A stretch of 64,000 nucleotides of DNA, taken from Streptomyces canus. GTDB lineage: Bacteria; Actinomycetota; Actinomycetes; Streptomycetales; Streptomycetaceae. A program made the translations under genes and the position numbers. Location of the stretch: assembly GCF_030816965.1 (NCBI RefSeq), contig NZ_JAUSYQ010000002.1, positions 1,054,001-1,118,000 on the forward strand, read 5' to 3'. Under the pieces are notes generated by a model that did no database searches, was not told the origin of the DNA, and worked only from the letters and a program-made list of their open reading frames with translations. Shown piece by piece: positions 27,945 through 54,966 of this stretch. How positions within the stretch are numbered: the first letter of the stretch is position 1; every line of letters starts with the position of its first letter.

Positions 27945-28832
27945 TCAACTCCGACGATCGTCTCGCGCCCCGACACCGGAACCCGTCCCCTGCTCACCGT
28001 CCGACAGGGTCTGCAGCGCCGAGGTCACGGCATCGGCCATCGCCCGGCGTGCCGCGGTGAGGGCGGGGCGGGGGTCGACGGCCGCGGGCGTCGCGGCGAG
28101 TGTGTCGCGGACCGCGCCGGTGAAGGCGGCATTCAGTGCCGTGCCGATGTTGACCTTGACCATGCCGGCCGCCACCGCCTGCCGGAGCTCCTCGTCGGGC
28201 ACGCCCGTCGAGCCGTGCAGTACCAGTGGCACGGGGACCGCCTTGGCGAGGCGGGCGATGAGACCGTGGTCCAGCCGGGCGGTGCGCGTGGTCATCGCGT
28301 GGGAGCTGCCGACCGCGACGGCCAGTGCGTCCACCCCGGTGGCGGACACGAAGTCGCGCGCCTGGTCGGGGTCCGTACGTGCCGAGGGTGCGTGCACTCC
28401 GTCCTTGCCGCCGATCTCGCCGAGTTCCGCCTCCAGCCACAGACCCTGTGCGTGTGCCCACTGTGCCGCCGCGCGCGTGGCGGCGACGTTCTGGGCGTGC
28501 GGCAGCGCGGACGCGTCGAACATGACGGATCCGAAGCCGCAGTCCGCGGCGCGGCGCAGCAGCGCTTCGTCGGTGACGTGGTCGAGGTGCAGGGCCACGG
28601 GGACGGCGGCCGTCTCGGCGAGCGCCGCGGTGGCGCGGGCTATCGGGGCGAGCCGGCCGCCGTGGAATCGCACGGCGTTCTCGCTGATCTGGCAGATGAC
28701 CGGGCGTCCTGCGGCTTCTGCCCCGGTGACCACGGCTTCGGCGTGCTCCAGGGTGATCACGTTGAACGCGCCGACGGCCCGCCCGTCGCGGTACGCGGAG
28801 CTCACCACGTCGGCGGTGGGAGTCAGCGGCAC
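27945..28832 (-). CDS. Class II tagatose/fructose-bisphosphate aldolase (AgaY/GatY type)
   Basis: This 295-residue zinc-dependent aldolase has class II motifs: GAFNVITLEHAEAVV at the start, PVALHLDHVTD (Zn-binding His and nearby Asp), GFGSVMFDAS, WLEAELGEIGGKDG, LVLHGSTGVPDEEL (Zn His, Gly loop) and GMVKVNIGTALN (phosphate site). The GTG at 28832 has AGGAGG 6 bp upstream, the best start. It would split tagatose-1,6- or fructose-1,6-bisphosphate into dihydroxyacetone phosphate and glyceraldehyde-3-phosphate. Association with a DeoR regulator, an AgaS-like SIS protein and a sugar ABC transporter favours the tagatose branch of galactosamine/N-acetylgalactosamine catabolism (inference). It is divergent from the DeoR gene. 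Confidence 0.85.
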   Translation of the reverse strand: MPLTPTADVVSSAYRDGRAVGAFNVITLEHAEAVVTGAEAAGRPVICQISENAVRFHGGRLAPIARATAALAETAAVPVALHLDHVTDEALLRRAADCGFGSVMFDASALPHAQNVAATRAAAQWAHAQGLWLEAELGEIGGKDGVHAPSARTDPDQARDFVSATGVDALAVAVGSSHAMTTRTARLDHGLIARLAKAVPVPLVLHGSTGVPDEELRQAVAAGMVKVNIGTALNAAFTGAVRDTLAATPAAVDPRPALTAARRAMADAVTSALQTLSDGEQGTGSGVGARDDRRS

Positions 28833-28935
28833 GGACGGCCTCCTGCCGCGGCGTGCGAGGGCAGGGGCAGGGATGTGCGGGAAGTGCAGGCTTTTGCTCG
28901 TTTGACGTCCATAAAGCACCCAATCATGCGCTGTG

Positions 28936-28945
28936 GTTTCATTGA
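28936..28945. promoter_or_regulatory. Shared motif GTTTCATTGA, putative DeoR operator (site 1)
   Basis: In the 158-bp aldolase/DeoR divergent spacer, GTTTCATTGA occurs once. The exact reverse complement recurs at 33074-33083 before the SIS gene. Both are AT-rich islands followed or preceded by GCGCAC. CAATCAT also occurs near both (28921 and 33052). A motif shared by the two divergent spacers that flank the cluster is what a local regulator site should look like. Confidence 0.5.
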
Positions 28946-28990
28946 GGTGCGCACTTGGTGGCGCACACCACCTACAGAGAGTTGTGAGAC

Positions 28991-29779
28991 ATGGCGGCAC
29001 CGCAGGCCCGGTGGAGCGCGCTGCTGGAGATGCTGACGCGCGACGGGCGGATCGAAGTCGAGTCGGCTGCCGAGGAGTTGCGCGTCTCCGCCGCGACCAT
29101 CAGGCGCGACCTCGACGAGCTGGCCCGCCAGCAGATGGTCACCCGCACGCACGGCGGAGCCGTGATCAACGCCATCGCCTATGACCTGCCACTGCGCTAC
29201 AAGGCCGCACGCAAGGCTCCGGAAAAGGAGCGGATCGCGGACGCGGCCGCCGGGCTGGTGAAGGCCGGCGCCGTGGTGGGGCTGAACGGCGGCACCACGA
29301 CCACCGAGGTGGCGCGAGCTCTGGCCACCCGCGCCGACCTGAGTTCCGGCGGCGCGGAGACGGCGGTCACCGTGGTGACCAACGCCCTGAACATCGCCAA
29401 CGAGCTGGTCGTACGGCGTCACGTCAAGCTCGTGGTGACCGGTGGGGTGGCCCGGCCGGCGTCGTACGAGCTGATCGGTCCGCTGGCCACCGAACTGCTC
29501 GCGGAGATCGCACTGGACCAGGTCTTCATCGGAGTGGACGCCATCGACGTGGCCCACGGGGCGACCGCCCACCACGAGGGCGAGGCCAGCATCAACCGGG
29601 CGCTGGCCCGCCGGGCGCAGCAGGTTGTCGCGGTCGCCGACTCCTCCAAGCTGGACCGGCGGGCTTTCGCCCGAATCTGCCCGGTGGCGGACATCGACGT
29701 CCTGGTGACCGACAAGGCCGCCTCGGACGAACTGACCGAGTCGTTCGAGGCGGCCGGTGTGGAGGTCATCCGCGCCTGA
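28991..29779 (+). CDS. DeoR family sugar-phosphate-responsive regulator (AgaR-like)
   Basis: This 262-residue protein has an N-terminal DeoR helix-turn-helix (GRIEVESAAEELRVSAATIRR is split by the turn, then DLDELARQQMVTRTHGGAV) and a C-terminal DeoR sensor domain of the isomerase-like fold: GLNGGTTTTEVARAL, VTNALNIANEL, TGGVARPASYELIGPL and FIGVDAID, ending with VVAVADSSKLDRRAF and DIDVLVTDKAA. DeoR sensors bind a phosphorylated sugar made by the pathway they control. With the aldolase on one side and the transporter and SIS genes on the other, it is the obvious local repressor. Confidence 0.9.
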   Translation: MAAPQARWSALLEMLTRDGRIEVESAAEELRVSAATIRRDLDELARQQMVTRTHGGAVINAIAYDLPLRYKAARKAPEKERIADAAAGLVKAGAVVGLNGGTTTTEVARALATRADLSSGGAETAVTVVTNALNIANELVVRRHVKLVVTGGVARPASYELIGPLATELLAEIALDQVFIGVDAIDVAHGATAHHEGEASINRALARRAQQVVAVADSSKLDRRAFARICPVADIDVLVTDKAASDELTESFEAAGVEVIRA

Positions 29780-29841
29780 CACCGCGCGTCGCTCCGGTAT
29801 CGGCCCCCGCGGCTGCCCGGGGTGCGATGCGGATCCCGGTG

Positions 29842-30729
29842 TCATCCGCGCACGCCGCCCGCGGTCAGGCCGGCGACGAGGTAGCGCTCCACGAAGACGA
29901 ACAGCACCACCACGGGCACGATCGCGACGATCGAGGTGGCGAACAGGTACTGCCACTGCTCGTGGTACGAGGTGACGAAGCCGGGGATCGCCCTGGTCAG
30001 TGTCATTCGGTTGCCGGACGAGGTGATCGTGAGCGCCACCACGTACTCGTTCCACGCGCCGATGAAGGTGTAGACGAGCGCGGTCACCACACCGGGCATC
30101 GCGAGCGGCAGGATGACACGGGTGAGGGCGCCGAACCGTCCGGTGCCGTCGAGCCAGGCCGCCTCCTCCAGTTCCTTGGGGATGCTCGCGAAATACGCGT
30201 TGAGGATCCACACGCAGAACGGCAGGTTGAACGCGGCGTTCACCAGGATGAGGCCCTCGGCGGTGTCGGTCAGGTCGAAGCTGACCATCTCCCGGTAGAT
30301 GCCGACCAGGAGGGCGGTCGGCGCGAACATCTGGGTGACGAGCACGAGGATCAGGAAGGCGCCGCGCCCGCGGAACCGGTGCCGTGCGGTGTAGTACGCG
30401 GCGGGCAGCCCGACGGCCAGGGCCAGCAGCGTCGACGCCCCGGCGACGTACAGCGAGAACAGCAGCGCGTCCCCGACGCGCGGGTCGGTGAGCGACCAGA
30501 TCTGCGTGAAGTTCGACCACTGCCAGTGGGAGGGCAGATAGGACGGCGGGGACTCCATCAGTTCGGGCGTCGGTTTGAGCGCCGTCAGGAGCATTTCCGC
30601 GTAGGGCGCGAGAAACGCGAGTGCCACCAGCCAGCCGGCCGCGGTGAGCAGGACGGTGCGCAGTTTCATCGGTCGTGGCCGCCTCCTGCGCGGCGCGGAG
30701 GTACGGGGACTGACGGCGGTTCTGCTCAC
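29842..30729 (-). CDS. Sugar ABC transporter permease (MalG type)
   Basis: This 295-residue protein has six predicted membrane helices and the permease EAA loop (ELEEAAWLDGTGRFGALTRVILP) that contacts the ATPase. The GTG at 30729 overlaps the stop of the upstream permease by 4 bp. It belongs to the CUT1 family that imports oligosaccharides. The order SBP-MalF-MalG is conserved. No ATP-binding subunit is encoded in the cluster; streptomycetes commonly share a single ATPase (MsiK) between CUT1 systems, and that is the likely energy source. Confidence 0.9.
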   Translation of the reverse strand: MSRTAVSPRTSAPRRRRPRPMKLRTVLLTAAGWLVALAFLAPYAEMLLTALKPTPELMESPPSYLPSHWQWSNFTQIWSLTDPRVGDALLFSLYVAGASTLLALAVGLPAAYYTARHRFRGRGAFLILVLVTQMFAPTALLVGIYREMVSFDLTDTAEGLILVNAAFNLPFCVWILNAYFASIPKELEEAAWLDGTGRFGALTRVILPLAMPGVVTALVYTFIGAWNEYVVALTITSSGNRMTLTRAIPGFVTSYHEQWQYLFATSIVAIVPVVVLFVFVERYLVAGLTAGGVRG

Positions 30730-31691
30730 GCGGTGTCCTCCTGTCGGCGGACGACGCGCAGATAGACCAGCACCACGGCGAGGACCAGCCCGAAGTTGAC
30801 GACGGCCATGGCGGCCGACTCCCCCACCGACTGGTTGTCGAAGGCGAGTTTGTACAGATAGGTGGTGGTCGTGTCGGTGCTGAAGCCGGGGCCGCCACGC
30901 GTCATGGCCCAGATGATGGGGAACGAGTTGAACACGTTGATGACGTTGATGATCGCGGCGACCACCAGCGAGGGCCGCAGCAGCGGCAGGGTGATGCTCA
31001 GGTAGGCGCGGACCGGGCCCGCGCCGTCCACCCGCGCCGCCTCGTACACCTCGCCGGGGATGCTCTGCACACCGGCCAGCAGGACGAACGAGGTGAACGG
31101 CAGCGAGACGAACACCGCCACGCCCATCATCGCCGCCAGGGCCTGCCCCGGATGGGCGAGCCAGTTGACGGGGGCGTCGAGCACCCCGATGTCCATGAGC
31201 AGCCGGTTGACCACGCCGTAGAAGTTGTTGAGCATCCAGCGCCAGATGAGCGCCGTCATCAGCACGGACGAGGCCCAGGGCACGATCATCGCCCACCGCA
31301 CCAGCCGGCGCCCCGGGAAGCTCGCGTTCAGCAGTTGGGACAAGCCCAGGGAGACCAGGATCGTGACGGTGACGACGCCGATGACCCACACGACGGTGCG
31401 CAGCAGCACTCCGGGCAGGTCGCCCTCGGCGAACAGATCGGTGTAGTTGCGCAGGCCGGCGAATCCCTCGGACAGTCCGGTGGAGCTCACCTTCGTCAGG
31501 GACGTACGGATCATCTCGATGATCGGCCAGACGACCATGGTCAGGATGAGGAGGGTCGCGGGCCCGAGCCACAACAGGGGCTCGAGCGTGCGCCATGTCC
31601 TGCGACGGCGGCGCGGCGGATGCAGCGCCGGCGCCACCGGGGCCGGGTGTTCGGCCCCGGTGGCGCTTGCGGTGACATCGTGTACGGCCAC
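30726..31691 (-). CDS. Sugar ABC transporter permease (MalF type)
   Basis: This 321-residue protein has a cytoplasmic, proline/arginine-rich N terminus, six membrane helices and an EAA loop (EVYEAARVDGAGPVRAYLSITLP). The GTG at 31691 lies 5 bp after the solute-binding protein stop. It pairs with the MalG-type permease downstream to form the channel of a CUT1 importer for a sugar or short oligosaccharide. Confidence 0.9.
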   Translation of the reverse strand: MAVHDVTASATGAEHPAPVAPALHPPRRRRRTWRTLEPLLWLGPATLLILTMVVWPIIEMIRTSLTKVSSTGLSEGFAGLRNYTDLFAEGDLPGVLLRTVVWVIGVVTVTILVSLGLSQLLNASFPGRRLVRWAMIVPWASSVLMTALIWRWMLNNFYGVVNRLLMDIGVLDAPVNWLAHPGQALAAMMGVAVFVSLPFTSFVLLAGVQSIPGEVYEAARVDGAGPVRAYLSITLPLLRPSLVVAAIINVINVFNSFPIIWAMTRGGPGFSTDTTTTYLYKLAFDNQSVGESAAMAVVNFGLVLAVVLVYLRVVRRQEDTA

Positions 31692-31696
31692 CGAAG

Positions 31697-32956
31697 TCAG
31701 TCGCCCTTCTGTGCGGTCTTCTGGATCTCGCCCAGGACCTTCGCCGGGTCGCCGCCCGCCACCCCGGTGCCGATGCGCTGTTTCACCGCACCGTCGACCG
31801 CGGCCCATGCCGGGTCGTCGGCGGGGGCGAACTCGGCGCTGGAGAGGGCGTCGACGAACGGCTTGTAGTAGGCGGCGTTCTGGCTGTCGGAACTGAGCAC
31901 CTGACCGGCCGACTCGGTGACCGACAGGAACCCCTCGGTGGAGACGAACCTGGCGGCGTTCTCCTTCTGGTAGAAGAAGTCGAGGAACTTCTTCACCGCC
32001 GCCTTGTTCGACCCGTCGCTCTTCTTGAACGCGACGAGGTAGTCCTGCACGCCGAGCGTCTTGTGGGTGCTGCCGTCCTTGCTGGGCAGGGCCGCGACGC
32101 CGTAGTTCAGGTCGGCGTCGACCGGGTCGATGAAGCCCTTCCGCATGAAGACCGCCCCGTTGAGCATGCCGATCTTGCCCTGGGCGAACTGGTTGAAGAC
32201 GTCCTTGCGGTTGGTGGCCTCCGGGTTGGGCTGGGTGACCTTTTCCTTCGTCAGTTTCCGCAGATAGCTGAGCGTGTCGACGTTGGCCTGCTGGTCGATC
32301 GCCCACTTGCCCGAGGCGTCGGTCCAGCCACCGCCGTTGTTCATCGCCCAGATCTGGAACTCGGCCTGCGCCTCCTCGGGGCCCAGGGGCAGCCCGAGGC
32401 CGATGTAACCGGCCTGCTTGATCTTCTTGGCGTCGGCCTCGACCTCGGCCCAGGTGGACGGCGGCCGGGCTATGCCCGCCTTGGCGAAGATGTCCTTGTT
32501 GTAGAAGAACAGGCGCGCGCTGGAGATGAAGGGCAGGCCGTACTGGGCCCCCTTGTACTGCGCCTTCTGCCGGAACAGCGGGAGGAAGTCGGCCAGCACC
32601 TTGGGAGAGACGACGTCCTGCGCCTTGTACACCAGGCCGTCCCGGGCGAAGTCGGAGAACTTGTTGTAGTTGAGGATGTCCGGTTCCTGCTTGGTCTGGA
32701 CGTACGTCTTGACCTTGGAGTCCATCTGCTCCCAGTCGACGACTTCGAGGTTGACCCGGTAGCCGGGGTTCACCTTTTCGAAGTCCTTGATCAGCGCGGT
32801 CCAGTAGGCCTGGGTGTCGTCGTCGTACTTCGCCGCGACGAACCTGATCGTCTTGCCGTCGGATCCGCCGCTGTCCGAGGAGCTGCCCTTGCCGCAGCCG
32901 GTGAGGGCCAGTGCCAGGGCCGTACCCCCGGCGAGGCCCGCGAGGTGCCGTTTCAC
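31697..32956 (-). CDS. Sugar ABC transporter solute-binding lipoprotein
   Basis: This 419-residue protein starts at the GTG at 32956 with GAGAGG 6 bp upstream. Its signal peptide ends with the lipobox LALTGC, so it is anchored to the membrane. The mature protein is a class I extracellular sugar-binding protein (family 1): FVAAKYDDDTQAYWTALIKDFEKVNPG, DILNYNKFSDFARDGLVY, YGLPFISSARLFFYNKDIF, and GGGWTDASGKWAID. It is the first gene of the transporter operon and divergent from the SIS-domain gene. The ligand cannot be read directly; context suggests a galactosamine- or hexosamine-containing glycan fragment. Confidence 0.9.
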   Translation of the reverse strand: MKRHLAGLAGGTALALALTGCGKGSSSDSGGSDGKTIRFVAAKYDDDTQAYWTALIKDFEKVNPGYRVNLEVVDWEQMDSKVKTYVQTKQEPDILNYNKFSDFARDGLVYKAQDVVSPKVLADFLPLFRQKAQYKGAQYGLPFISSARLFFYNKDIFAKAGIARPPSTWAEVEADAKKIKQAGYIGLGLPLGPEEAQAEFQIWAMNNGGGWTDASGKWAIDQQANVDTLSYLRKLTKEKVTQPNPEATNRKDVFNQFAQGKIGMLNGAVFMRKGFIDPVDADLNYGVAALPSKDGSTHKTLGVQDYLVAFKKSDGSNKAAVKKFLDFFYQKENAARFVSTEGFLSVTESAGQVLSSDSQNAAYYKPFVDALSSAEFAPADDPAWAAVDGAVKQRIGTGVAGGDPAKVLGEIQKTAQKGD

Positions 32957-33073
32957 GGAGTACCTCTCCGCACGCATGGCGTGCTTGGTCAAGCGCGTGC
33001 TCGCCTGATTGCGCGCTCGCTTGCTTGTTTATGCTCGATTGCTGGTGCTATCAATCATCGAACGACATGATGC

Positions 33074-33083
33074 TCAATGAAAC
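33074..33083. promoter_or_regulatory. Shared motif TCAATGAAAC, putative DeoR operator (site 2)
   Basis: This is the exact reverse complement of the motif at 28936-28945 and lies in the divergent spacer (32957-33150) between the solute-binding protein and the SIS gene. The same spacer has AT-rich tracts (TTTATGCTCGATTGC, CAATCATCG) uncommon in this genome. It is well placed to control both divergent units. Confidence 0.5.
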
Positions 33084-33150
33084 GCGCACAGTGTCAAGGG
33101 CCGTCGCATCACGTATCGGTCACGCCGTGCGCCCGAGAGGGGAGTCCCCG

Positions 33151-34050
33151 ATGAGTCAGACCGACATCGAGATCGCCACCCAGCCCGACTGCTGGCGGCA
33201 GGCCGTGACACTGGCCCGGAGGCCCGACGGTCCCGCCTCCGCCTCGCTGCCCGGGCCCGGCGAGCGGGTGGCCGTCGTCGGTTGCGGGACGTCCTGGTTC
33301 ATCGCCCAGGCGTACGCGGCACTGCGGGAGTCGGGCGGTCACGGCGAGACCGATGCCTTCCCCGCCTCTGAGATGCCGAGCGGGCGGGCCTACGACCGGG
33401 TGGTCGCGCTGACCCGGTCCGGCACCACGACCGAAGTACTGGAGCTGCTCGGCCGGCTGCGCGGGCACACCCCCACGACCGCGGTGACCGCGGTGGCGCA
33501 GTCGCCGGTGACGGGGCCGGCGGACGCCGTCGTCGTGCTCGACTTCGCCGACGAGACCTCGGTCGTCCAGACCCGGTTCGCCAGCACGGAACTGGTGCTC
33601 CTACGGGCCCACTTGGGCGAGGACCTGGAACATCTGCCGCAGCAGGGGCACTCGGCGCTGGACGAACCGCTGCCGGCCGGGGTGCTGGAGGCCGAGCAGT
33701 TCACCTTCCTGGGACAGGGCTGGGCCTACGGGATCGCCCAGGAGGCGGCGTTGAAGATGCGCGAGGCGGCGGGAGCCTGGACCGAGGCCTACCCGGTGAT
33801 GGAGTACCGGCACGGCCCGATCAGCGTCACCGCGCCCGGCCGCGTGGCGTGGTGGTTCGGAGACCCGGCGGCCCTGCCTTCCGGTCTCGCCGACGAGATC
33901 GCGGACACCGGCGGGCAGTTGGTGGCGCTCGGCCGGGACCCGCTGGCAGATCTCGTCGTGGTGCACCGGCTGGCCTCCGCCCTCGCCTCGGCGCGCGGGC
34001 TGGACCCGGACAATCCGCGCCATCTGAGCCGTTCCGTGATCCTGGCCTGA
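33151..34050 (+). CDS. SIS-domain sugar-phosphate isomerase/deaminase (AgaS-like)
   Basis: This 299-residue cytoplasmic protein has two SIS domains. The first has VAVVGCGTSWFIAQAYAALRES and ALTRSGTTTEVLELL (phosphosugar-binding Ser/Thr loop). The second has FLGQGWAYGIAQEAALKMREAAGAWTEAY split over two helices, then EYRHGP. The arrangement is that of AgaS and of the isomerase half of GlmS. AgaS-type enzymes convert galactosamine-6-phosphate to tagatose-6-phosphate with release of ammonia. The ATG at 33151 has GAGAGGGGA upstream. Together with the aldolase and DeoR genes it outlines an Aga-type pathway. Confidence 0.8.
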   Translation: MSQTDIEIATQPDCWRQAVTLARRPDGPASASLPGPGERVAVVGCGTSWFIAQAYAALRESGGHGETDAFPASEMPSGRAYDRVVALTRSGTTTEVLELLGRLRGHTPTTAVTAVAQSPVTGPADAVVVLDFADETSVVQTRFASTELVLLRAHLGEDLEHLPQQGHSALDEPLPAGVLEAEQFTFLGQGWAYGIAQEAALKMREAAGAWTEAYPVMEYRHGPISVTAPGRVAWWFGDPAALPSGLADEIADTGGQLVALGRDPLADLVVVHRLASALASARGLDPDNPRHLSRSVILA

Positions 34051-34406
34051 CCGGGCGTTCCCCCGGAAGGATCTCGGGGGCCGCAGAATTTACGCGTCCG
34101 TTACGAAAGGTTTCCGGGCCCGCCGAGGCCGGTCGGCGGGCCCCAGGACCGACCGCCACCAGGGACAACAGCCGCTCCACGACAGCCCTCGGGGCACTCG
34201 GGACGCCGCGTGCCCCGCATGTTGACAGGTGGCGGTTCCCGCAAGAGCATGTGCGAAATCGCTTCGAATCTTGCATCCGTACGCAGAATCAAGCAGACCG
34301 CAGCTCTGGCGGGCACCGCGCTTCTTCGTGACCGTGCGCTCCGCACGCCACCGGCACCACGCACCGCCGCTCCTGAGCCACCGTCCTGTCCGACAGGAGG
34401 ACACGA
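34051..34406 (+). other. Intergenic region upstream of the glycan-degradation operon
   Basis: This 356-bp stretch holds no gene I can support. It contains a terminator for the SIS gene (34116-34143), then TTGACA at 34222-34227 as a possible -35 element with only a poor -10 match (GAGCAT). A CGAA-N5-TTCG dyad lies around 34253-34267. The GH31 ribosome site ACAGGAGG lies at its end. Confidence 0.4.
34116..34143 (+). terminator. Hairpin terminator after AgaS-like gene
   Basis: GGGCCCGCCG and CGGCGGGCCC form a perfect 10-bp stem with an 8-nt loop, 66 bp after the SIS gene stop. It separates the catabolic genes from the extracellular enzyme operon. Confidence 0.75.
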
Positions 34407-37439: not shown

Positions 37440-37465
37440 CACACCGCTTTCACCCTCCCGGTTGC

Positions 37466-37500
37466 CCGGCAGGCCCCTCCTCCCCCTGAGGGCCTGCCGG
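37466..37500 (+). terminator. Hairpin between first GH31 gene and GH123
   Basis: CCGGCAGGCCC (37466-37476) pairs perfectly with GGGCCTGCCGG (37490-37500) around a 13-nt loop. It lies 26 bp after the GH31 stop, within the 153-bp gap. It could end a short GH31 transcript, or act as a partial terminator or 3' stabiliser that lowers expression of the following nine genes. Confidence 0.65.
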
Positions 37501-37592
37501 GGGCCATCCCCGCCTCCCGGCAGTCCTCCCGCCCCCCCAGGACCCGCCGGGGACAACTCCCTGCACCTCCGTGAGAGAGGGACCCCAGCCCC

Positions 37593-46363: not shown

Positions 46364-46372
46364 GGAGGAACC

Positions 46373-48520
46373 GTGTCCAGACGGCTTGAACACCTGCGGG
46401 GGCACGGAAGATTCGCGCTCCTGGCCACAGCGTTGGCGGCCACCGTGGCAGCCCTGCTTCCGGTGGCGCCGGCCGCGGCCGAGACCGCACCTCAGGGGTG
46501 GACGGGGACGTGGGCGACCGCCCAGCACGCCGCGTACGACCCCGGCACCTCGGAGGTGACGGTTCGGATACCGGTGCGGGTGAGCGCCGGCGGGTCGAGC
46601 GTACGCATCCGCCTGACCAACGACTTCACCACCGAGCCGGTGACCATCGGACACGCGACCGTCGGACTTCGGGATGGCGGTTCCGCCGTCACGAAGCCGC
46701 AGAAGCTGCGGTTCGGCGGGAAGAGCAAGGTGACGATCCCCGCCGGCGGGCAGGCGGCCAGCGATCAGGTCCGGCTCACCGTGCCCGCCCGCAGCGACTT
46801 GGTCGTCAGCCTGTACTTCCCGGGCCGGCTCACCCACATCAGCCAGCACTGGATGGGCCTGCAGACCGTCTACTGGACGCCCGACGGCGGCGGCGACCAC
46901 GCCTCGGACGCCGACGGGGACGCCTTCACCAGGACCGATTCCACCTTCCCGTTCCTGACCGGTGTCGACGTACAGGGCGGCAACGCGGCGGGCGCCGTGG
47001 TGGCGCTCGGCGACTCCATCACCGACGGCGCGGCCTCCACCTCGAACGCCAACCGGCGCTGGCCCGACTACCTGGCGGGGCGGCTGTCGGCCTGCTCGAC
47101 CACCGCCGGGGTGCTGAACGAGGGCATCAGCGGCAACCGGATCACCGCCGGCGTGGACGGCAACCCGTCGGCGCCGGCCCGGCTGGAGCGCGATGTGCTG
47201 TCGCAGCCGGGCGCCACGACAGTGGTCCTCTTCGAGGGCGTCAACGACCTCAGCTGGGGCGGCGCCACCGGCGATCAGGTGATCGACGGCATGAAGGAGA
47301 TCGTGCGCCGCGCCCACGAACGCGGGCTGCGCGTGATCGGCGCGACGGTCGTGCCGTATCGCGGCTGGGGCGACTGGTGGACCGAGGCCAAGGAGGCCGA
47401 CCGGCAGAAGGTCAACACGTTCGTCCGCGACGGCGGCGTCTTCGACGGCTACGCCGACTTCGACAAGGCCGTACGGGACCCGGACGACCCCACCCGCTAC
47501 GCCGCCGCGTTCGACTCCGGTGACCATCTGCACCCCAACGACGTCGGGATGAAGGCCTTCGCCGACGCGGTCGACCTCGCCGGCCTGCGGGTGGCCCGCG
47601 ACTGCCCCTCGGCCCGCGTCCGGCTCACCCCGTACCGGCCGACCCTGCAAGCCGGAGGCGACGGCACACAGATCACGTCGACCGTCACCAATAGCGGAAC
47701 CAAAGCGGTCACCGAGGTCAGTACTCGCCTCGATCTCCCCGACGGCTGGTCCGCCGAACCGTCCGGTAGCGCGCGGGTGCGCTCCCTCGCCCCCGGCGGC
47801 AGCGCCAAGGTCACCTGGACGGTGACCCCGGCGGCCGACGCGGCCTGGGGCACCCACCAGATCGGCGTACGCACCTCCTTCCTCCAGGACGGCCGGACAC
47901 GCCGCGACTTCGACAGCGTGGACGCCACGGTGACTCCCGCTCCGTCCGAGGTGCGGGCGCCGTATCTGACGACCGCCACCACCACCGAGAAGGCCCAATA
48001 CGCGCAGAACGGCGACCAGTTCGCCATCTGGGCGGGCGGTCAGGACCTGTCCGGCTGGAAGGACGAGAAGGCGGCGGTCTACCTCGCCGACGTGGCGCCG
48101 CCGTCCGGCACCGTGACCGCCCGGGTCGTCGGTCAGACCGGCAGCGGCCCGTCCGCCAAGGCGGGGATCGCCGTCGCCAACGACCTCACCTCGCCCGAGG
48201 CGGGCGGCTACGCGGTGCTCACCATGTCCGCGCAGTACGGCCTGGAGTTCCTCACCGACACCGACGGCGACGGGAAGCTCGATACCTGGGCGGGCGGCGG
48301 CAGTTCGTACCACCCCGCCTGGCTGAAGCTCGTCCGCGACGGCACCGCCTACACCGCGTACGCCAGTTCCGACGGCACCGCCTGGCAGCAGGTGGCCACC
48401 GCCACCGTGCCGTCCGCGAGCGGTACCGGCGACGCCGGAATGGTCGCGAGCGCCGTCAACCTCAACTACCCCGACCAGATCACGACAGCACTCTTCGACT
48501 CCTTCTCCACGCACGCCTGA
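46373..48520 (+). CDS. Secreted SGNH/GDSL esterase with NEW3 and C-terminal beta-sandwich module
   Basis: This 715-residue protein starts at a GTG with GAGGAGG upstream, 9 bp after the first esterase. A signal peptide ends near PAAAETA. The first 400 residues are a clear paralogue of the preceding protein (WTGTWATAQ, VVALGDSITDG, FEGVNDLSWGG, SGDHLHPND). A NEW3 domain follows (about 412-510), then the beta-sandwich module (about 526-715) with GDQFAIWAGGQDLSGW and the calcium-type loop DTDGDGKLD. The module is nearly identical to that of the first GH31 enzyme. The two esterases probably act on different parts of one glycan, with this one targeted by its extra modules. Confidence 0.88.
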   Translation: MSRRLEHLRGHGRFALLATALAATVAALLPVAPAAAETAPQGWTGTWATAQHAAYDPGTSEVTVRIPVRVSAGGSSVRIRLTNDFTTEPVTIGHATVGLRDGGSAVTKPQKLRFGGKSKVTIPAGGQAASDQVRLTVPARSDLVVSLYFPGRLTHISQHWMGLQTVYWTPDGGGDHASDADGDAFTRTDSTFPFLTGVDVQGGNAAGAVVALGDSITDGAASTSNANRRWPDYLAGRLSACSTTAGVLNEGISGNRITAGVDGNPSAPARLERDVLSQPGATTVVLFEGVNDLSWGGATGDQVIDGMKEIVRRAHERGLRVIGATVVPYRGWGDWWTEAKEADRQKVNTFVRDGGVFDGYADFDKAVRDPDDPTRYAAAFDSGDHLHPNDVGMKAFADAVDLAGLRVARDCPSARVRLTPYRPTLQAGGDGTQITSTVTNSGTKAVTEVSTRLDLPDGWSAEPSGSARVRSLAPGGSAKVTWTVTPAADAAWGTHQIGVRTSFLQDGRTRRDFDSVDATVTPAPSEVRAPYLTTATTTEKAQYAQNGDQFAIWAGGQDLSGWKDEKAAVYLADVAPPSGTVTARVVGQTGSGPSAKAGIAVANDLTSPEAGGYAVLTMSAQYGLEFLTDTDGDGKLDTWAGGGSSYHPAWLKLVRDGTAYTAYASSDGTAWQQVATATVPSASGTGDAGMVASAVNLNYPDQITTALFDSFSTHA
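48011..48071 (+). repeat. DNA block shared with first GH31 module (copy 2)
   Basis: Counterpart of 36930-36990, differing by one base. Confidence 0.8.
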
Positions 48521-48546
48521 TCGACGTACCAGTGAGAGGCACGTAT

Positions 48547-49995
48547 ATGGCAGTCAACCGCAGACACTTCATGACCACCGCGGCCGCCCTCGGCGGCGCG
48601 GTGCTGCTGGCCCCGCCCGGCACCGCCCAGGCCCTCACCCAAGGTGCGTCGCCCGTCGCCTCGAGCCTCCCCGACTACCAGCCCACCAAGGCGTCCCTCG
48701 ACACCCATCCCGTGCCGCGCTGGTACAAGGACGCCAAGTTCGGCATCTTCGTCCACTGGGGCATCTACTCGGTGATCGGCGGCGCGACACCGAGAAGCGC
48801 CTCCGAGTGGTACCTGTGGTACCAGAGCACCAAGGACACCGCCGAGTGGAAGTACCACCGCGACACCTACGGCGAGAACGTCACCTACGACGACCTCATC
48901 CCCCAGTTCAAGGCCGAGAAGTACGACCCCGACTCCTGGGTGCGGCTGTTCGAGCAGGCGGGCGCCGAGTACTTCGCACTGACCAGCAAGCACCACGACG
49001 GATTCGCCCTCTACCCGAGCCAGGTGACGGACCGTCACTCCGTGGCGTACGGCCCGAAGCGTGACCTCGTCGGTGAGCTGATGAGCGCGGCCCGCAGGCG
49101 CGGCACCGTGCGGCCGGGCCTGTACTACTCGCTCGGGGAGTTCTTCAACCCGGCGATCGGCCGACCGATGCGCAACTTCTACACCGGCCAGGAGATCCCG
49201 ATGACCGGCTACAAGCCGGTCCAGGACTACGTCGGCGACTACGAGCTCAAGCAGCTGTACGAGATCATCGACCGCTACGACCCGGAGCTGCTCTGGGCCG
49301 ACGGGCAGTGGTTCCGGCCCACCGGCAACCCGCCGTGGCGCAGCGAAGAACCCATGGCCCACTACTACAACCAGGCCAAGAACCGTACGCGCCCCAAGGG
49401 CGTCGTGATCAACGACCGGTTCGACACCCACTTCGACTTCGCGACGTACGAGCAGCGCACCAACCCCACGATGGACCCCCAGAAGTGGGAGTGCTGCATG
49501 ACCATCGGCTACTCCTGGGGCTACAACAAGCACGAGCCGGACGAGGACTACAAGACCTCCGAGTTCCTGATCCAGCTGCTCGCCGACGTGGTCAGCAAGA
49601 ACGGCAACCTGTTGCTCAACATCGGCCCCAAACCGGACGGCACGATCCCCGACATCATGCAGGAGCGGCTGCGGGACATCGGCGCCTGGCTGAAGGTCAA
49701 CGGCCCCGCGATCTACGGGTCGACGCCCGGGGTGCGGGCGGAGGAGGAGGGCGGCCCGCTCGGCATCCGCTACACCGTCTCCCCGGGCAAGTTCAACATC
49801 ATCGTGCTGGGCGCGCCCAGCGGCACCCTCTCGGTGCCCGGCGACATCCCCATCAGCGCCACGTCCCGGGTCCGGCTGCTCGGCACGAGCGGCAGTCTGC
49901 GGTGGACCCGCCGTGACGGAAAGATCAACATCACCGTCCCGTCCTCCCTGCCCAGCGACATCGCCAACGTCTTCACCGTCGACTGGGCCCGGTGA
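48547..49995 (+). CDS. Tat-exported GH29 alpha-L-fucosidase
   Basis: This 482-residue protein starts at the ATG at 48547 with GAGAGG 7 bp upstream. The N terminus NRRHFMTTAAALGGAVLL is a twin-arginine signal, cleaved near AQALTQ. The GH29 barrel shows WYKDAKFGIFVHWGIYSV, YFALTSKHHDGFALY, LLWADGQWF (nucleophile Asp252), NGNLLLNIGPKPDGTI and RLRDIGAWLKVNG. It removes alpha-linked L-fucose. Beyond about 400 there is only the usual beta-sandwich. Its stop overlaps the next start by 4 bp (GTGA), and the next two proteins lack signal peptides, unlike everything else in the operon. Confidence 0.94.
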   Translation: MAVNRRHFMTTAAALGGAVLLAPPGTAQALTQGASPVASSLPDYQPTKASLDTHPVPRWYKDAKFGIFVHWGIYSVIGGATPRSASEWYLWYQSTKDTAEWKYHRDTYGENVTYDDLIPQFKAEKYDPDSWVRLFEQAGAEYFALTSKHHDGFALYPSQVTDRHSVAYGPKRDLVGELMSAARRRGTVRPGLYYSLGEFFNPAIGRPMRNFYTGQEIPMTGYKPVQDYVGDYELKQLYEIIDRYDPELLWADGQWFRPTGNPPWRSEEPMAHYYNQAKNRTRPKGVVINDRFDTHFDFATYEQRTNPTMDPQKWECCMTIGYSWGYNKHEPDEDYKTSEFLIQLLADVVSKNGNLLLNIGPKPDGTIPDIMQERLRDIGAWLKVNGPAIYGSTPGVRAEEEGGPLGIRYTVSPGKFNIIVLGAPSGTLSVPGDIPISATSRVRLLGTSGSLRWTRRDGKINITVPSSLPSDIANVFTVDWAR

Positions 49996-50945
49996 ACGGC
50001 ATGGGAATCAGTAACGGCACCCAGTTCGACGCCCTGGGACCCACCCTCTCCGTCACCACGCAGCCGGCCGAGCCGGCCGGCGGTGACACGGTCACCGCCA
50101 CCGCGGTCCTCACCAACGACTGTCCCTTCCCACTCCTCAACGCCGTGCTCCATCTGATCAATCCCCGAGCCACCACGGCGGCGAAGACCATCCCGCTCGG
50201 CGACCTGCGGCCCGGCACGAAGACAACCCGGCGCTGGCAGACGGCGATCCCGGCCGACATGGCCGGGAACGTGTCGTTCACCGCACACCTGGTCTTCGAC
50301 GTCGACGAGCACAGCAGCGACTGCGCGCGGACCGCGAAGACGTTCACGGTGCCCTACGAGCCCAACGAGGTGCGGGACCCGTACCGGACGTTCGCCACCA
50401 CCGACGACGCCAAGTTCGGCCAGTACGGCGGCCAGTTGGTGATCTGGGCGGGCGGCCGCGACTTCTCCGGCGGCACCGACGAGAAGGGGGGCATCCTCCT
50501 TCCCGGCTCCGCCGCCGAGTCGAGCGTGGTGCAGGTCGAGACGGTCAGCCTCACCGGCAGCGACAACCCCACCGCCAAGTACGGCATCGCCGTCGCCAAC
50601 GACCTGACCGCGCCGGAGAAGGGCGGCTACGCCGTCCTCACCATGTCGAAGTCGTACGGCGTGGAGTTCATGACCGACAGCGACGGCAACGGACACCTCG
50701 ACACCTGGGCCGGCGGCGGCGTTTCCGCCCACCCCGCCTTGCTGCGCCTGGTCCGCTCCGGCACCACCTACACCGCTTACACCAGTACCAACAACGGCCT
50801 CTCCTGGAACGAGATCGCGAGCGTGACCGTGCCCTCCGCGAGCGGGGCCCTGGACGCGGGCGTGGTGGCGAGCGCCGTGAACCTCAACTACCCCGGCACG
50901 ACGGTCCAGGCCGTGTTCGACCACTTCACCGTGGAGGAGTCGTGA
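49992..50945 (+). CDS. Module-only protein: NEW3-like domain plus beta-sandwich module, no signal peptide
   Basis: This 317-residue protein starts at the GTG in the GH29 stop overlap. No signal peptide or membrane helix is seen. Residues about 12-118 form a NEW3-like beta domain with FTAHLVFDVDEHSSDCAR. Residues about 125-317 are the shared beta-sandwich module (QLVIWAGGRDFSGG, the calcium-type loop DSDGNGHLD, ASGALDAGVVASAVNLNYPG). It has no catalytic domain. In the GH31 and esterase proteins this domain pair is the C-terminal tail of one polypeptide. Here it is a separate, translationally coupled gene. It may be exported with the Tat-dependent fucosidase, or be a former GH29 tail split off by frameshift. 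Confidence 0.8.
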   Translation: MNGMGISNGTQFDALGPTLSVTTQPAEPAGGDTVTATAVLTNDCPFPLLNAVLHLINPRATTAAKTIPLGDLRPGTKTTRRWQTAIPADMAGNVSFTAHLVFDVDEHSSDCARTAKTFTVPYEPNEVRDPYRTFATTDDAKFGQYGGQLVIWAGGRDFSGGTDEKGGILLPGSAAESSVVQVETVSLTGSDNPTAKYGIAVANDLTAPEKGGYAVLTMSKSYGVEFMTDSDGNGHLDTWAGGGVSAHPALLRLVRSGTTYTAYTSTNNGLSWNEIASVTVPSASGALDAGVVASAVNLNYPGTTVQAVFDHFTVEES

Positions 50946-51847
50946 CCGCCTACCGTCCCGAGGAGGACTTCCTCTCGCCGCCCGTCTCGCTCACCGTCAC
51001 CCCCTCGGCGCCCGAGGCCGGCAAGGCCGTGACCCTGACGGCCACCCTCACCAACACCGCCCCCATCGCGCTGCGCGGCACCGTGCTCTATCTCGCCGTG
51101 GACGACTCCGCCGCAGAGGACGGCCTGGGCGACCTCGCGCCCGGACGGTCGGTGACCCGCACCTGGCGGACCCAGCTGGCCGACGACGCCGAGGGCCGGA
51201 TCGTGTTCACCGCGCACGCCCTCTTCGACGTGCACCGCCACGGCTCCGACTGCACCCGCGCCACCACTCCCGTCCTGCTGCCGTACCGCTCGTTGCCCAA
51301 GGCGTTCGACAACGCGGGGATCTCCACCGAGGAGGCCCCCACCGCCGCGAACATCGACGGCTCGAACTCCAGCCTGTCCGCCGAGGCGCTGGCGTCGGTG
51401 GGGCTGACCCCGGGCGCCACGGTCGCCTACGAAGGGGTGCCCTTCACCTGGCCGGACACCCGGCCCGGGAGCCAGGACAACGTCATCTCCTCCGGTCAGG
51501 CCGTGCTGCTGTCAGGATCCGGTTCCCGGTTGTCCTTCCTCGGCACCAGCACCTGGGGCGAGGGCAAGGGCGACGGCAAGGTCGTCTACGCCGACGGCAC
51601 CGAGCAGGCGTTCTCGGTCGCCGTCCCCGACTGGTACGGCGCGAACTCCTCCGCCGCGGTGGTGCTGCCCTACCGGCACATCAGCACCGGCCGGGACGAC
51701 AGCCCCGTCAGCCTGTTCACCTTCGGCGTCGATCTGACAGCCGGGAAGGAACTGCGTTCCGTGGTCCTGCCCAAGGTCAGCGACGGCATCCAGGCGGGTG
51801 CCGCCGCCCTGCACATCTTCGCCATGACGATCACGACGATCAACTGA
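50942..51847 (+). CDS. Module-only protein: NEW3-like domain plus actinobacterial GH-associated C-terminal domain, no signal peptide
   Basis: This 301-residue protein begins at a GTG overlapping the previous stop by 4 bp (GTGA). It has no signal peptide. Residues about 14-115 are a NEW3-like domain paralogous to the previous protein (FTAHALFDVHRHGSDC against FTAHLVFDVDEHSSDC). Residues about 118-301 are a different domain: ISTEEAPTAANIDGSNSSLS, GVPFTWPDTRPGSQDNVI, PDWYGANSSA and LHIFAMTI. I recall this type at the C termini of many secreted actinobacterial glycosidases such as GH92 enzymes. It has no catalytic domain. It is the third member of a GH29/module/module coupled set. Confidence 0.78.
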   Translation: MTAYRPEEDFLSPPVSLTVTPSAPEAGKAVTLTATLTNTAPIALRGTVLYLAVDDSAAEDGLGDLAPGRSVTRTWRTQLADDAEGRIVFTAHALFDVHRHGSDCTRATTPVLLPYRSLPKAFDNAGISTEEAPTAANIDGSNSSLSAEALASVGLTPGATVAYEGVPFTWPDTRPGSQDNVISSGQAVLLSGSGSRLSFLGTSTWGEGKGDGKVVYADGTEQAFSVAVPDWYGANSSAAVVLPYRHISTGRDDSPVSLFTFGVDLTAGKELRSVVLPKVSDGIQAGAAALHIFAMTITTIN

Positions 51848-51867
51848 GCTCTGCCGGAAGGACGTTC

Positions 51868-54800
51868 ATGCACGACAACCGAGGCGACCTCGCCCTCCCA
51901 GGCGTCACGCGCAGACGGATCCTCACGGGCGCGGTCGCGCTGGGCGGCGCCGCGCTGCTGGCCCGCCCGCAAGGCGCGTACGCGGCCGACGGAGCCCTCT
52001 TCGACACCGCGCCCGCCGCGGCAGCGCTGAAGCGGCTGCTTCCCGACCACTACCGGCAGTTCACTCTGCGGGCCGTCGCCGACGTCGCCGACCGCTTCCG
52101 GGTCACCGGCCGGGCCGGGCAGATCACGGTGGAGGGCACGAGCCCCGCCGTGCTGCTGACAGGCCTCCACACCTACCTGCGGCGGACCGCGCACGCCTCC
52201 GTCTCCTGGACCGGCGAGCAGCTGGACCTGCCACGCATCCTCCCCGCGCCCGCCGCGGAGATCACCGGAACGGCCAACGTGCCGCACCGCTTCGCCTTCA
52301 ACGACACGAACGAGGGTTACACCGGCGCCTACCGTGGCTGGGACGCCTGGCAGTACGAGTTGGACGTGCTGGCCGTGCACGGAGTCAACCGGGTCCTCGT
52401 CTACATCGGCGGCGACGCCGTCTATTACGACACGTTCCGTCAGTTCGGCTACACCGACGCCGAGATGCGCGCCTGGATCCCGGCCCCCGCCCGTCAGCCC
52501 TGGTGGCTGCTGCAGAACATGTCGGGCTTCGGCGGGCCCGTCTCCCGGCAGCTCATCGAGAAGCGTGCCGCGCTCGCCGAGAAGATCATCGACCGGGTAC
52601 GTGACCTGGGCATGACGCCGGTGCTGCCGGGCTACTACGGCAGCGTCCCGGACGACTTCCCCGCCAAGCACGGCGGGGACGCGACCGTGGTGGCGCAGGG
52701 CACCTGGGGCGCCTTCAAACGCCCCGACTGGCTCGACCCGCGCACCACGGCCTTCGACGACGTGGCCGCCACTTTCTACCGTGCCCAGAAGGAGCGGTTC
52801 GGTGAGAGCACGATGTACAAGATGGACCTGCTGCACGAGGGCGGCAACGCCGGTGACGTGCCGGTGGGCGAGGCCGCGGGGGCCGTCGAGGCGGCGCTGC
52901 AGAAGGCCCACCCGGGGGCCGTCTGGGCGATCCTCGGCTGGCAGAACAACCCGGCCAAGGAGCTGCTCGACGGCGTCGACAAGAGCCGGATGCTGATCGT
53001 GGACGGCCTGTCGGACCGCTACACCACCGTCACGGACCGGGAGAGCGACTGGGGCGGCACCCCGTACGCCTTCGGCAGCATCTGGAACTTCGGCGGCCAC
53101 ACCCCGATCGGCGCCAACGCCCCGGACTGGGTGGAGCAGTACCCCAAGTGGCGTGACAAGGAAGGCAGTGCGCTCGCCGGTATCGCCGCGATGCCCGAGG
53201 GGGCGGACAACAACGCGCCCGCACTGGCCCTCCTCACCGACCTGGCCTGGACGCCCGGCTCCGTGGACCTGGACGACTGGTTCGCCGCGTACGCCCTCTC
53301 CCGCTACGGCGGCCCCGACCGGCATGCGGCGGCGGCCTGGCAGACGATCCGCGACACCGCGTACAACATGTCCCGCGCGGACTCCTGGAGCGAGGCGCCC
53401 GACGGCCTGTTCGGCGCCCGTCCGAGCCTGACGGCGAACAAGGCCGCCGCCTGGGGGCCGGAGAAGGACCGCTACGACACCACGGCCTTCGACGCCGCAC
53501 TCACCGAACTGCTCGCGGTACGAGCGGAGTTGAGGGGCAGCTCGGCCTACCGGTACGACGTCGTCGACGTGGCACGGCAGGTCCTGTCCAACCGCAGCCG
53601 GGTCCTGCTGCCGCAGATCAAGGCCGCGCACGACGCCGGGGACAAGGCATTGTTCGGCAGGCTGACCAAGACCTGGCTGGGCTGGATGGACCTCCTCGAC
53701 GACCTGCTGGCCACCTCCGGCCCGCATCTACTGGGGCGGTGGCTCAGCGACGCGCGCTCCTGGGGCGCCGACCGGCCCGAGAAGGACCGCCTCGAATACG
53801 ACGTCCGCTCCCTCATCACCACCTGGGGCGGACGCCAGAGCAGCGAGGAGGGCCTGCACGACTACGCGAACCGGGAGTGGTCCGGACTGGTCGGCGGCCT
53901 GTACCGCACCCGCTGGCAGACGTACTTCGACACGCTCGCCACGGGGAAGGACCCGGCGACGATCGACTGGTTCGCCCTGGAGGACCGCTGGGCGCACGCT
54001 CACGAGACGCACTCGACCGATCCCCACGGCTCCCCGTACGCCCTGGCCCGCAGCGTGCGCGACCTGCTCGCCACCACTCCCTACCAGGCGGCCCTCACGG
54101 CGGGGGCCGACCGGGGAGCGGTGGCCGAGGGCACGCCCGCGACGGTGACGGTCACCTTCACCAACAGGAACGGGTTCACGGCGGCACGCGGTGTGACCCT
54201 TTCCGTCACCGCTCCCAAGGGCATGGCAGTGAAGGCGCTCGATCCGGTGAGCAAGGCGTCGGTGGCGTCCGGCGAGACGTTCGCCGCTCACTTCGAGGTC
54301 TCGCTGGCGGGTGCGCTTACGGAACTGGTCGGCCAGGTCGTCGCCACGGCGTCGTACGCAGGGGGTGGGAAGGCGGTGGCGCCGGTACGGCTGATGGCCG
54401 CGGCCGGGGTCGGCGACCCGTACCGCACCGCCTCCTACAACGACGCGGTGTTCGGCCAGACCGGCGACGAGATCGCCATCGAGGGCGCGGGGGCCGACCT
54501 GTGGGGCGGCACCAACGAGTTCGGGGCGGTGTACCGGGCGGGCGGGTACAAGGACGGAACGGTGGCCCAGGTCACGGTCACGTCCCAGGACGCGTCCGGA
54601 GGCTGGGCACGGGCGGGCCTCATCGTCCGCAACGACCTGGGTACGCAGGGAGGCGCCGGTTACGTGAATCTGGCGATCACCCCGTCCAACGGCTGTGCGC
54701 TGAGCTGGGACGCGGACGGTGACGGCCGTTTCGACTCGATCGAACTGGCGGGCTCCTTCACCGCGCCGGTGCGGCTGCGGCTGACCCGGTCCGGCGCCTC

Positions 54801-54966
54801 GTACACCGGTGAGGCGAGCACGGACGGCGTCACCTGGACGACGGTGGGCACGGCCACGCCGTCAGGCGCGGCCGCCGCACAGGACGTCGGGGTCTTCATG
54901 ACCGCGGCCAACGGCTGGACCGACGGACGGGGCATCGCCACGTTCGACGGATTCACGGTGACCTGA
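51868..54966 (+). CDS. Tat-exported GH89 alpha-N-acetylglucosaminidase with C-terminal beta-sandwich module
   Basis: This 1032-residue protein has a twin-arginine signal (TRRRILTGAVALGGAALL, cleavage near AYAADG). A NAGLU-type N-terminal domain precedes the GH89 barrel: RFAFNDTNEGYTGAYRGW, DAWQYELDVLAVHGVNRVL, YKMDLLHEGGNAGDV (Glu324) and AAMPEGADNNAPAL (Glu444), which match the positions of the two catalytic glutamates of human NAGLU. A helical domain follows to about 740, then a NEW3-like domain (about 750-840) and a diverged beta-sandwich module (847-1032) with the calcium-type loop DADGDGRFD. It releases terminal alpha-GlcNAc, a cap found on gastric mucin and heparan-type glycans. It is the last gene of the operon. 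Confidence 0.92.
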   Translation: MHDNRGDLALPGVTRRRILTGAVALGGAALLARPQGAYAADGALFDTAPAAAALKRLLPDHYRQFTLRAVADVADRFRVTGRAGQITVEGTSPAVLLTGLHTYLRRTAHASVSWTGEQLDLPRILPAPAAEITGTANVPHRFAFNDTNEGYTGAYRGWDAWQYELDVLAVHGVNRVLVYIGGDAVYYDTFRQFGYTDAEMRAWIPAPARQPWWLLQNMSGFGGPVSRQLIEKRAALAEKIIDRVRDLGMTPVLPGYYGSVPDDFPAKHGGDATVVAQGTWGAFKRPDWLDPRTTAFDDVAATFYRAQKERFGESTMYKMDLLHEGGNAGDVPVGEAAGAVEAALQKAHPGAVWAILGWQNNPAKELLDGVDKSRMLIVDGLSDRYTTVTDRESDWGGTPYAFGSIWNFGGHTPIGANAPDWVEQYPKWRDKEGSALAGIAAMPEGADNNAPALALLTDLAWTPGSVDLDDWFAAYALSRYGGPDRHAAAAWQTIRDTAYNMSRADSWSEAPDGLFGARPSLTANKAAAWGPEKDRYDTTAFDAALTELLAVRAELRGSSAYRYDVVDVARQVLSNRSRVLLPQIKAAHDAGDKALFGRLTKTWLGWMDLLDDLLATSGPHLLGRWLSDARSWGADRPEKDRLEYDVRSLITTWGGRQSSEEGLHDYANREWSGLVGGLYRTRWQTYFDTLATGKDPATIDWFALEDRWAHAHETHSTDPHGSPYALARSVRDLLATTPYQAALTAGADRGAVAEGTPATVTVTFTNRNGFTAARGVTLSVTAPKGMAVKALDPVSKASVASGETFAAHFEVSLAGALTELVGQVVATASYAGGGKAVAPVRLMAAAGVGDPYRTASYNDAVFGQTGDEIAIEGAGADLWGGTNEFGAVYRAGGYKDGTVAQVTVTSQDASGGWARAGLIVRNDLGTQGGAGYVNLAITPSNGCALSWDADGDGRFDSIELAGSFTAPVRLRLTRSGASYTGEASTDGVTWTTVGTATPSGAAAAQDVGVFMTAANGWTDGRGIATFDGFTVT

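Follow-up and report, generated by a model that had tools for sequence, protein, structure and literature searches.

The MelC1/MelC2 tyrosinase pair of Streptomyces is a hitchhiker of the twin-arginine translocation (Tat) pathway. Hitchhiker complexes are likewise known for hydrogenases and formate dehydrogenases, and the cargo named there consists of redox enzymes (PMC10924467). Here we describe a 64,000-nucleotide stretch of the Streptomyces canus genome (contig NZ_JAUSYQ010000002.1, positions 1,054,001 to 1,118,000; the genome comprises 10.66 Mb in two contigs), hereafter the window, in which ten genes in one direction, at 34407-54966, encode eight enzymes with export-type N-termini and two leaderless proteins, here termed CBMx1 and CBMx2. 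Very probably the run is an accessory operon for trimming complex glycans with alpha-galactose (Gal), beta-N-acetylgalactosamine (GalNAc), beta-Gal, alpha-L-fucose (Fuc) and alpha-N-acetylglucosamine (GlcNAc) ends by means of exported exo-glycosidases and O-acyl esterases; the enzyme families are observed, and from them we infer the substrate and co-transcription. That the operon acts in this way and that, in addition, CBMx1 and CBMx2 provide binding modules in trans and leave the cell together with a Tat enzyme is a joint proposal to which, judging from sequence, we give somewhat less than an even chance. The genes of the run are as follows.

34407..37439, plus strand: GH31a, predicted exported alpha-galactosidase, with NEW3 and X1 tail
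37593..39461, plus strand: GH123, predicted exported beta-N-acetylgalactosaminidase (Pfam, 301.5 bits)
39458..43114, plus strand: GH35 beta-galactosidase with NEW3 and NPCBM (Pfam, 302 bits)
43096..45132, plus strand: GH31b, divergent accessory GH31 in which Glu-Glu replaces the Asp-Asp pair
45143..46363, plus strand: SGNH esterase 1 (SGNH1), predicted exported (PF13472; motifs GDSI and DHLHP)
46373..48520, plus strand: SGNH esterase 2 (SGNH2), predicted exported, with NEW3 and X1 tail
48532..49995, plus strand: GH29 alpha-L-fucosidase, bare catalytic domain with twin-arginine leader (364 bits)
49992..50945, plus strand: CBMx1, leaderless, N-terminal Ig-like domain and X1 module
50942..51847, plus strand: CBMx2, leaderless, N-terminal Ig-like domain and X2 module
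51868..54966, plus strand: GH89 alpha-N-acetylglucosaminidase with twin-arginine leader and X1-type tail (barrel, 334 bits)

Export signals were assigned by motif, using twin-arginine (RR) and hydropathy rules in our own scripts and no trained predictor. The family content given in an earlier note on this DNA (two GH31 genes, GH123, GH35, two SGNH genes, GH29 and GH89 in one co-directional run) agrees with Pfam, and its count of eight exported enzymes is borne out by an export-type N-terminus in eight of the ten genes and none in the other two. The most hydrophobic 12-residue stretch near the N-terminus scores 0.9 in CBMx1 and CBMx2 versus 1.8-2.9 in the eight enzymes. Among homologues a hydropathy above 1.6 was reached by 4 of 63 for CBMx1 and by none of 114 for CBMx2 (the set leaves out P0065 and the last 16 CBMx1 matches, which are partial or fused, and the last six listed CBMx2 homologues), and in the highest-scoring of them, P0032, the hydrophobic run falls, by alignment, within the Ig-like domain. 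No signal peptide was seen in CBMx1 or CBMx2 of the window, nor in those orthologues that were examined; an upstream start that would give CBMx1 a signal peptide was considered and discarded, as the frame in the window adds only 25 arginine-rich codons. A Tat-type leader was recognized by motif in every GH29 (14/14) and every GH89 (15/15), and the motif was found in none of the GH31a (0/15), GH123 (0/15), GH35 (0/14), GH31b (0/5) or SGNH1 (0/9) proteins. By motif and hydropathy the operon has the layout of a Tat hitchhiker, a leaderless partner encoded with an enzyme that bears a twin-arginine leader.

Neither CBMx1 nor CBMx2 gave a Pfam match above cut-off, and the search revealed nothing of a DNA-binding or enzymatic domain in them. 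Their N-terminal Ig-like domains are related to each other (43-45% identity, HHalign probability 99.7) and appear private to the pair: all 30 strong matches in 392 Streptomyces genomes lie within CBMx1 or CBMx2. Wider use of the domain was also sought with the corresponding region of P0066, which returned 24 proteins, every one of CBMx1 or CBMx2 type, and was discarded. In the genome searches the top candidates were scored per genome (three for GH123, five for CBMx1, four for GH29 and 12 for the Ig-like domain), and in the protein searches for CBMx1 and CBMx2 homologues 8000 candidates, such that weaker copies may escape. Many CBMx2 homologues are named beta-glucosidase in public records, with no catalytic Pfam domain listed. 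The C-terminal modules are of kinds that enzymes carry covalently. In this operon GH31a, SGNH2 and GH89 bear X1-type modules, and those of CBMx1, GH31a and SGNH2 share a clade (support 100/99) that excludes 26 outside X1 modules. Among the 16 next-closest GH29 paralogues examined, 13 carry X2 as a fusion, and 12 of these 13 have, by eye, an RR leader (the start chosen for one of the set, L147, is doubtful).

It could be argued that CBMx1 and CBMx2 never leave the cytoplasm; they might sense sugars, assist assembly or bind imported oligosaccharides there. Such a role would account for the absence of a visible export signal, and AziU2 (7wuw; 8gs1), an antibiotic-biosynthesis protein, has the X2 fold as well; the fold is thus not confined to secreted glycosidases. 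Most matches in the search that found AziU2 span the Ig-like domain only, and AziU2 is the one other X2 match that we claim. It should be emphasized, however, that X2 is otherwise found in GH29 enzymes with RR leaders, that X1 resides on GH31a, SGNH2 and GH89 of the operon, the GH31a and SGNH2 modules being the closest to that of CBMx1, and that nothing resembling a DNA-binding or enzymatic domain accompanies either module. We regard a cytoplasmic function as somewhat less likely than co-export.

The distribution of the genes also bears on their partnership. The GH29 orthologue (at least 79% identity) and full-length CBMx1 (at least 77%) share the same 14 of 392 genomes, and in genome G322, which has the block, both are missing. 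Matches at E 0.001 extend to 170 genomes for CBMx1 and 219 for GH29, those outside the 14 being much weaker. The X2-GH29 fusions, this exact co-occurrence and the shared private domain together lead us to favour the view that the leaderless proteins are binding subunits supplied in trans to GH29 and exported with it. Four-base overlaps link CBMx1 to the GH29 stop codon in 12 of 14 genomes and CBMx2 to CBMx1 in 12 of 13. Since overlapping stop and start codons amount to a -1 step, GH29, CBMx1 and CBMx2 might instead form a single protein through programmed -1 frameshifting at the two stops, or be a single gene disrupted by mutation. Against this, GH29 and CBMx1 are separate in all 14 genomes, CBMx1 relatives down to 61-65% identity also start with a short N-terminus, the bases before the first stop vary, and G068 and G261 have a different gap. 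By eye no slippery heptamer was apparent, on which ground programmed frameshifting was rejected; one-protein or broken-gene explanations as a whole strike us as very improbable. Median ratios of non-synonymous to synonymous substitution (dN/dS, Nei-Gojobori against the window gene, own script) are 0.35 for CBMx1 and 0.46 for CBMx2, compared with 0.21-0.33 for the enzymes; by this measure of sequence change both leaderless proteins appear to be under purifying selection. Outside Streptomyces, an 80-match protein search gave one named full-length relative of CBMx1, from Actinoallomurus. Stand-alone copies in other genera were also sought in 394 genomes of the class, covering 137 genera, at E 1e-20 or better; among the matches listed, those from outside Streptomyces lie in frames of at least 880 residues, and the idea was dropped.

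The lack of a leader, the shared domain, the module homology, the conservation, the co-occurrence and the Tat-type leaders on the flanking enzymes are read from the sequences, and could be joined by a model that adds docking, co-export and glycan binding. GH29, a bare catalytic domain, would have its binding modules made as separate proteins, CBMx1 and CBMx2 each combining the common Ig-like domain with a module that other enzymes bear covalently. The two would fold in the cytoplasm and use the Ig-like domain to dock on an enzyme with a twin-arginine leader, most likely GH29 for CBMx1 and either GH29 or GH89 for CBMx2. Once docked they would leave the cell as Tat passengers, and the product would be a non-covalent enzyme with glycan-binding arms. 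The more general proposal, that a dedicated docking domain builds Tat-exported multi-module glycosidases from separate genes, leaderless binding subunits and bare catalytic subunits being assembled in the cytoplasm, is put forward more tentatively still.

Several observations weigh against co-export. In locus L142 the GH29 is bare and bears an RR leader, and it has no such neighbour in ~1.4 kb downstream. CBMx2 is retained in G322, whose block lacks GH29, is missing in G375 and is frameshifted in G291. Linkage by itself would lead one to expect some of the co-occurrence between genes that adjoin in an operon, and the four-base overlaps are not special to the CBMx genes, because GH123 and GH35 are joined in the same way in 12 of 14 genomes. 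The dN/dS of the pair exceeds that of every enzyme. Ten of 14 SGNH2 proteins fit a loose RR pattern, and the GH31b leader of the window holds an RR pair outside the pattern, so that Tat export may reach beyond GH29 and GH89. Finally, a Tat-like leader is present on GH89 in four of five core loci without CBMx genes. This indicates that Tat export of GH89 predates the leaderless proteins and was not caused by them; the idea that the two arose jointly was rejected, the leader being older.

Twenty of the 392 genomes gave any GH123 match at E 0.001, and 15, counting the genome of the window itself, hold an orthologue at 79% identity or more. In the other 14, compared over 28.7-35 kb around GH123, the genes present keep their order without exception, and the arrangement is thus not due to chance. 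GH31a and GH89 occur in all 14 relatives, GH35, GH29, CBMx1, CBMx2 (one copy frameshifted) and the DeoR-family regulator in 13 each, and GH31b, at 85% identity or more, in four. The earlier expectation that the block is co-conserved holds for the enzymes and less strictly for uptake and catabolism: the solute-binding protein is found in nine relatives, the SIS-domain enzyme in seven and the aldolase in six (partial pieces uncounted; G376 ends at a contig edge upstream, such that its missing upstream genes are uncertain). Genes that flank the block in the window adjoin it in only two relatives (G291 and G140), which suggests that it sits in different places. Five genomes (G252, G176, G068, G369 and G261, within L026-L053) have two GH35 genes in succession; the second, a paralogue of ~1230-1270 residues, is absent from the window, is 48-50% identical to the window GH35 in the named loci and is assigned to the family by resemblance. 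Between GH123 and GH35 of G376 (contig C431) lies a 402-residue minus-strand frame that by eye resembles a TnpB/IS605-type transposase. G253 (contig C1) carries two GH123 copies with equal scores, at 549226 and 10989736, as well as two of CBMx1 and GH29; they lie ~549 kb from either chromosome end, which suggests very long terminal inverted repeats.

A set of 42 named loci, overlapping the 14 relative genomes in at least seven cases, includes four species named after potato scab, Nonomuraea, two Wenjunlia and Rhodococcus rhodnii. In Wenjunlia and Nonomuraea the block is shorter, GH31a-GH123-GH89, and is accompanied once by the DeoR and SIS genes. R. rhodnii, a kissing-bug symbiont, has a GH123-GH89 pair (L078; 65% and 40% identity). 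Loci of Bacillota and Bacteroidota have GH123 in common with the window and lack the block, distant GH29, GH31 or permease matches excepted; two marine flavobacteria (L085 and L087) each cluster four GH123-like genes.

The specificities of the enzymes were considered against solved relatives. For GH31a and GH31b the nearest are MYORG (7qqf) and the GH31 alpha-galactosidases 8j50-8j53, the latter presumably acting on alpha-1,4-galactobiose. GH31a shows the same residue sets as these enzymes but adds a NEW3 domain and an X1 tail, whereas GH31b, which has the same nearest solved relatives, has Glu-Glu at the D353-D354 positions in all five genes and lacks the complete MYORG-type set. The residues named for MYORG are W321, D353, D354, W426, K461, D463, R504, R517 and D520, and its arginines (written once as R504 and R507) occupy the room that an N-acetyl group would take (PMC9491548). 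All nine are retained in GH31a (hand count on alignments; chain numbering offset by 78), and each of its 15 orthologues has the six motif sets (W, DD, WW, K-x-D, R and R-x-x-D). Because the galactose-specific residues, the two catalytic Asp and the GalNAc-excluding arginines are kept, GH31a is predicted from its sequence to be an alpha-galactosidase of MYORG type and not an alpha-N-acetylgalactosaminidase. The latter activity, one of two that the earlier note had entertained for GH31, was ruled out for GH31a on the same residues and motif sets, and the check on GH31 specificity that the note had proposed thereby went partly against its reading. An N-acetyl pocket of GH31_18 type is likewise not seen in either protein, the arginine positions being kept in both as judged by alignment to MYORG.

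GH123 has 5l7v and 5l7r as nearest solved relatives (E 1e-70). Compared with the GH123 beta-N-acetylgalactosaminidases 5l7r and 5fqe, ~500 catalytic residues align, the catalytic Asp-Glu pair standing in FDER here (15/15 orthologues) and in MDER there; the actinobacterial form differs further in being linked to GH89 and GH31a. GH89 aligns over ~650 residues (E 2.5e-111) with the alpha-N-acetylglucosaminidase of PDB entries 2vc9 and 7mfk, which we take to be from Clostridium perfringens, and differs from it in bearing a Tat-type leader and an X1-type tail. The window protein has the NAGLU domains and matches both catalytic-Glu motifs (HEGGN and PE); as exact strings, both occur in four of the 15 genes, one in three and neither in eight. 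A motif scan of the orthologues gave no GH35 motif for G252. By family, GH123, GH31a and GH35 taken together would match a series of GalNAc-beta, Gal-alpha-1,4 and Gal-beta such as globo-type glycans contain.

Upstream of the operon lie the genes for regulation, uptake and catabolism, together with a promoter-like block.

27945..29000, minus strand: class II (ketose-bisphosphate) aldolase (PF01116, 284 bits)
28991..29779, plus strand: DeoR-family regulator, closest NCBIfam model AgaR, under cut-off (13/14 relatives)
29842..30750, minus strand: CUT1 permease, approximate start (PF00528)
30726..31630, minus strand: CUT1 permease, approximate start (PF00528)
31697..32992, minus strand: CUT1 solute-binding protein (PF01547, 130 bits)
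~33151..34050, plus strand: SIS-domain sugar-phosphate enzyme, GlmD/GlmS-like, not AgaS; start inferred
34222..34277, plus strand: conserved promoter-like block, TTGACAG ... ATCTTGC, 5' of the operon (upstream-DNA alignment, 15 loci)

Exo-enzyme families for beta-GalNAc, alpha-GlcNAc, alpha-Gal, beta-Gal and alpha-Fuc are indeed encoded for export close to the genes of a CUT1 transporter and a DeoR-type regulator, as had been noted, and with degradative carbohydrate-active enzymes, transporter and regulator adjacent the description as a Gram-positive polysaccharide-utilization locus is apt as regards layout. The neighbours adjoin the run as described, but the aldolase and the transporter (~29842-32992) are on the minus strand, the DeoR and SIS genes being on the plus strand, and only the SIS gene is a co-directional upstream neighbour of the operon; its start is, from the reading frame, probably closer to 33151 than to 32911. 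TTGACAG is present before GH31a in 14 of the 15 loci aligned, this block being the one promoter compared across loci, and a search for a regulator binding site common to three promoters found repeats that are not compelling. On the far side of the aldolase, at 26673-27815, a BNR/Asp-box repeat protein partially matches the F510_1955 glycosylhydrolase model (66 bits; cut-off 175) and is found in two of the 14 relatives. BNR repeats also occur in sialidases, and this protein might conceivably have a role in the locus. Farther away, at 16518-21033, enzymes for plant cell walls form a run in DNA of lower G+C (68%), in which the gene of a CBM2-bearing esterase overlaps a GH62 gene and two pectate lyases are encoded.

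The earlier note viewed the locus as one for mucin-type degradation with complete GalNAc salvage, through a GH31 alpha-N-acetylgalactosaminidase, AgaS and a tagatose aldolase. By family, GH123, GH89, GH29 and GH35 do fit the sugars of mucin, and the best model for the regulator is AgaR, albeit at 206.5 bits, below the cut-off of 260. Complete salvage is not borne out. The SIS protein scores 28 bits against agaS_fam (cut-off 529.2) and 86.4 against GlmD (cut-off 580), a search of the whole genome gave no agaS_fam match, and its identification as AgaS was rejected. The aldolase exceeds the cut-off of the general model TIGR00167 (228 versus 215.6 bits) and falls below those of the tagatose-specific models. 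Neither nagA nor a 1-phosphofructokinase-type kinase was found over cut-off inside the window, in a genome search that did not cover ROK-type kinases. Elsewhere, ~3.5 Mb from the window, nagA (4592429-4593511, 265 bits) is followed by a 1-phosphofructokinase (PfkB)-type gene (4593623-4594528, 314.6 bits), and there is a second PfkB-type kinase at 4310498; the distant nagA and PfkB-type kinase could serve the locus, which would favour GalNAc use. On the other hand, GH31a carries the residues of an alpha-galactosidase, the ten block genes scanned by Pfam include no sialidase, sulfatase, GH101, GH109 or GH129, and the uptake genes are often missing in relatives. The enzyme families thus fit mucin sugars, but nothing indicates mucin itself, four potato-scab species being among the 42 loci, and we consider degradation of mucin with GalNAc salvage unlikely.

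A microbial substrate, for example an exopolysaccharide or a glycopolymer of the cell wall that contains galactose and N-acetylhexosamine and may be O-acetylated, is a better, if still uncertain, candidate and is compatible with the operon and passenger proposals. It would suit carriers that include soil Streptomyces and the four species named after potato scab, the two SGNH esterases of the operon, and the several adjacent GH123 genes of some marine flavobacteria. Against it are the PDB relatives named beta-N-acetylgalactosaminidase and alpha-N-acetylglucosaminidase, and the finding that a GH89 of a mucin degrader frees GlcNAc from gastric mucin (PMC13096917).

The degradative part of the locus is an ordinary kind of system, and its conserved GH31, GH123 and GH89 enzymes may be useful for stripping alpha-Gal, beta-GalNAc and alpha-GlcNAc from glycans. 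The passenger idea would, if demonstrated, be new: among the titles and opening lines of abstracts searched, with most subscription papers outside that search, none dealt with a Streptomyces locus of this type or with a carbohydrate-binding module carried by Tat. Export of CBMx1 and CBMx2 with GH29 would represent a new way of equipping secreted enzymes with binding modules, and would account for 'hypothetical' proteins, and 'beta-glucosidase' proteins listed with no catalytic Pfam domain, in many Streptomyces. The assembly would be a counterpart, put together in the cytoplasm, of a cellulosome-like complex, its modules swapped by gene exchange and not by fusion, and would provide a Tat passenger system outside redox enzymes that is useful for secretion. 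AziU2 of Streptomyces sahachiroi (7wuw; 8gs1, in which the molecule is named Azi28), which shares the X2 fold, is a member of an AziU2-U3 complex according to the entry titles, and we know of no link between it and sugar binding. With the Tat hitchhikers the locus has in common a leaderless partner encoded next to an enzyme with a Tat leader. In contrast with those redox enzymes, however, the putative complex described here would unite a binding-module protein with a glycosidase.

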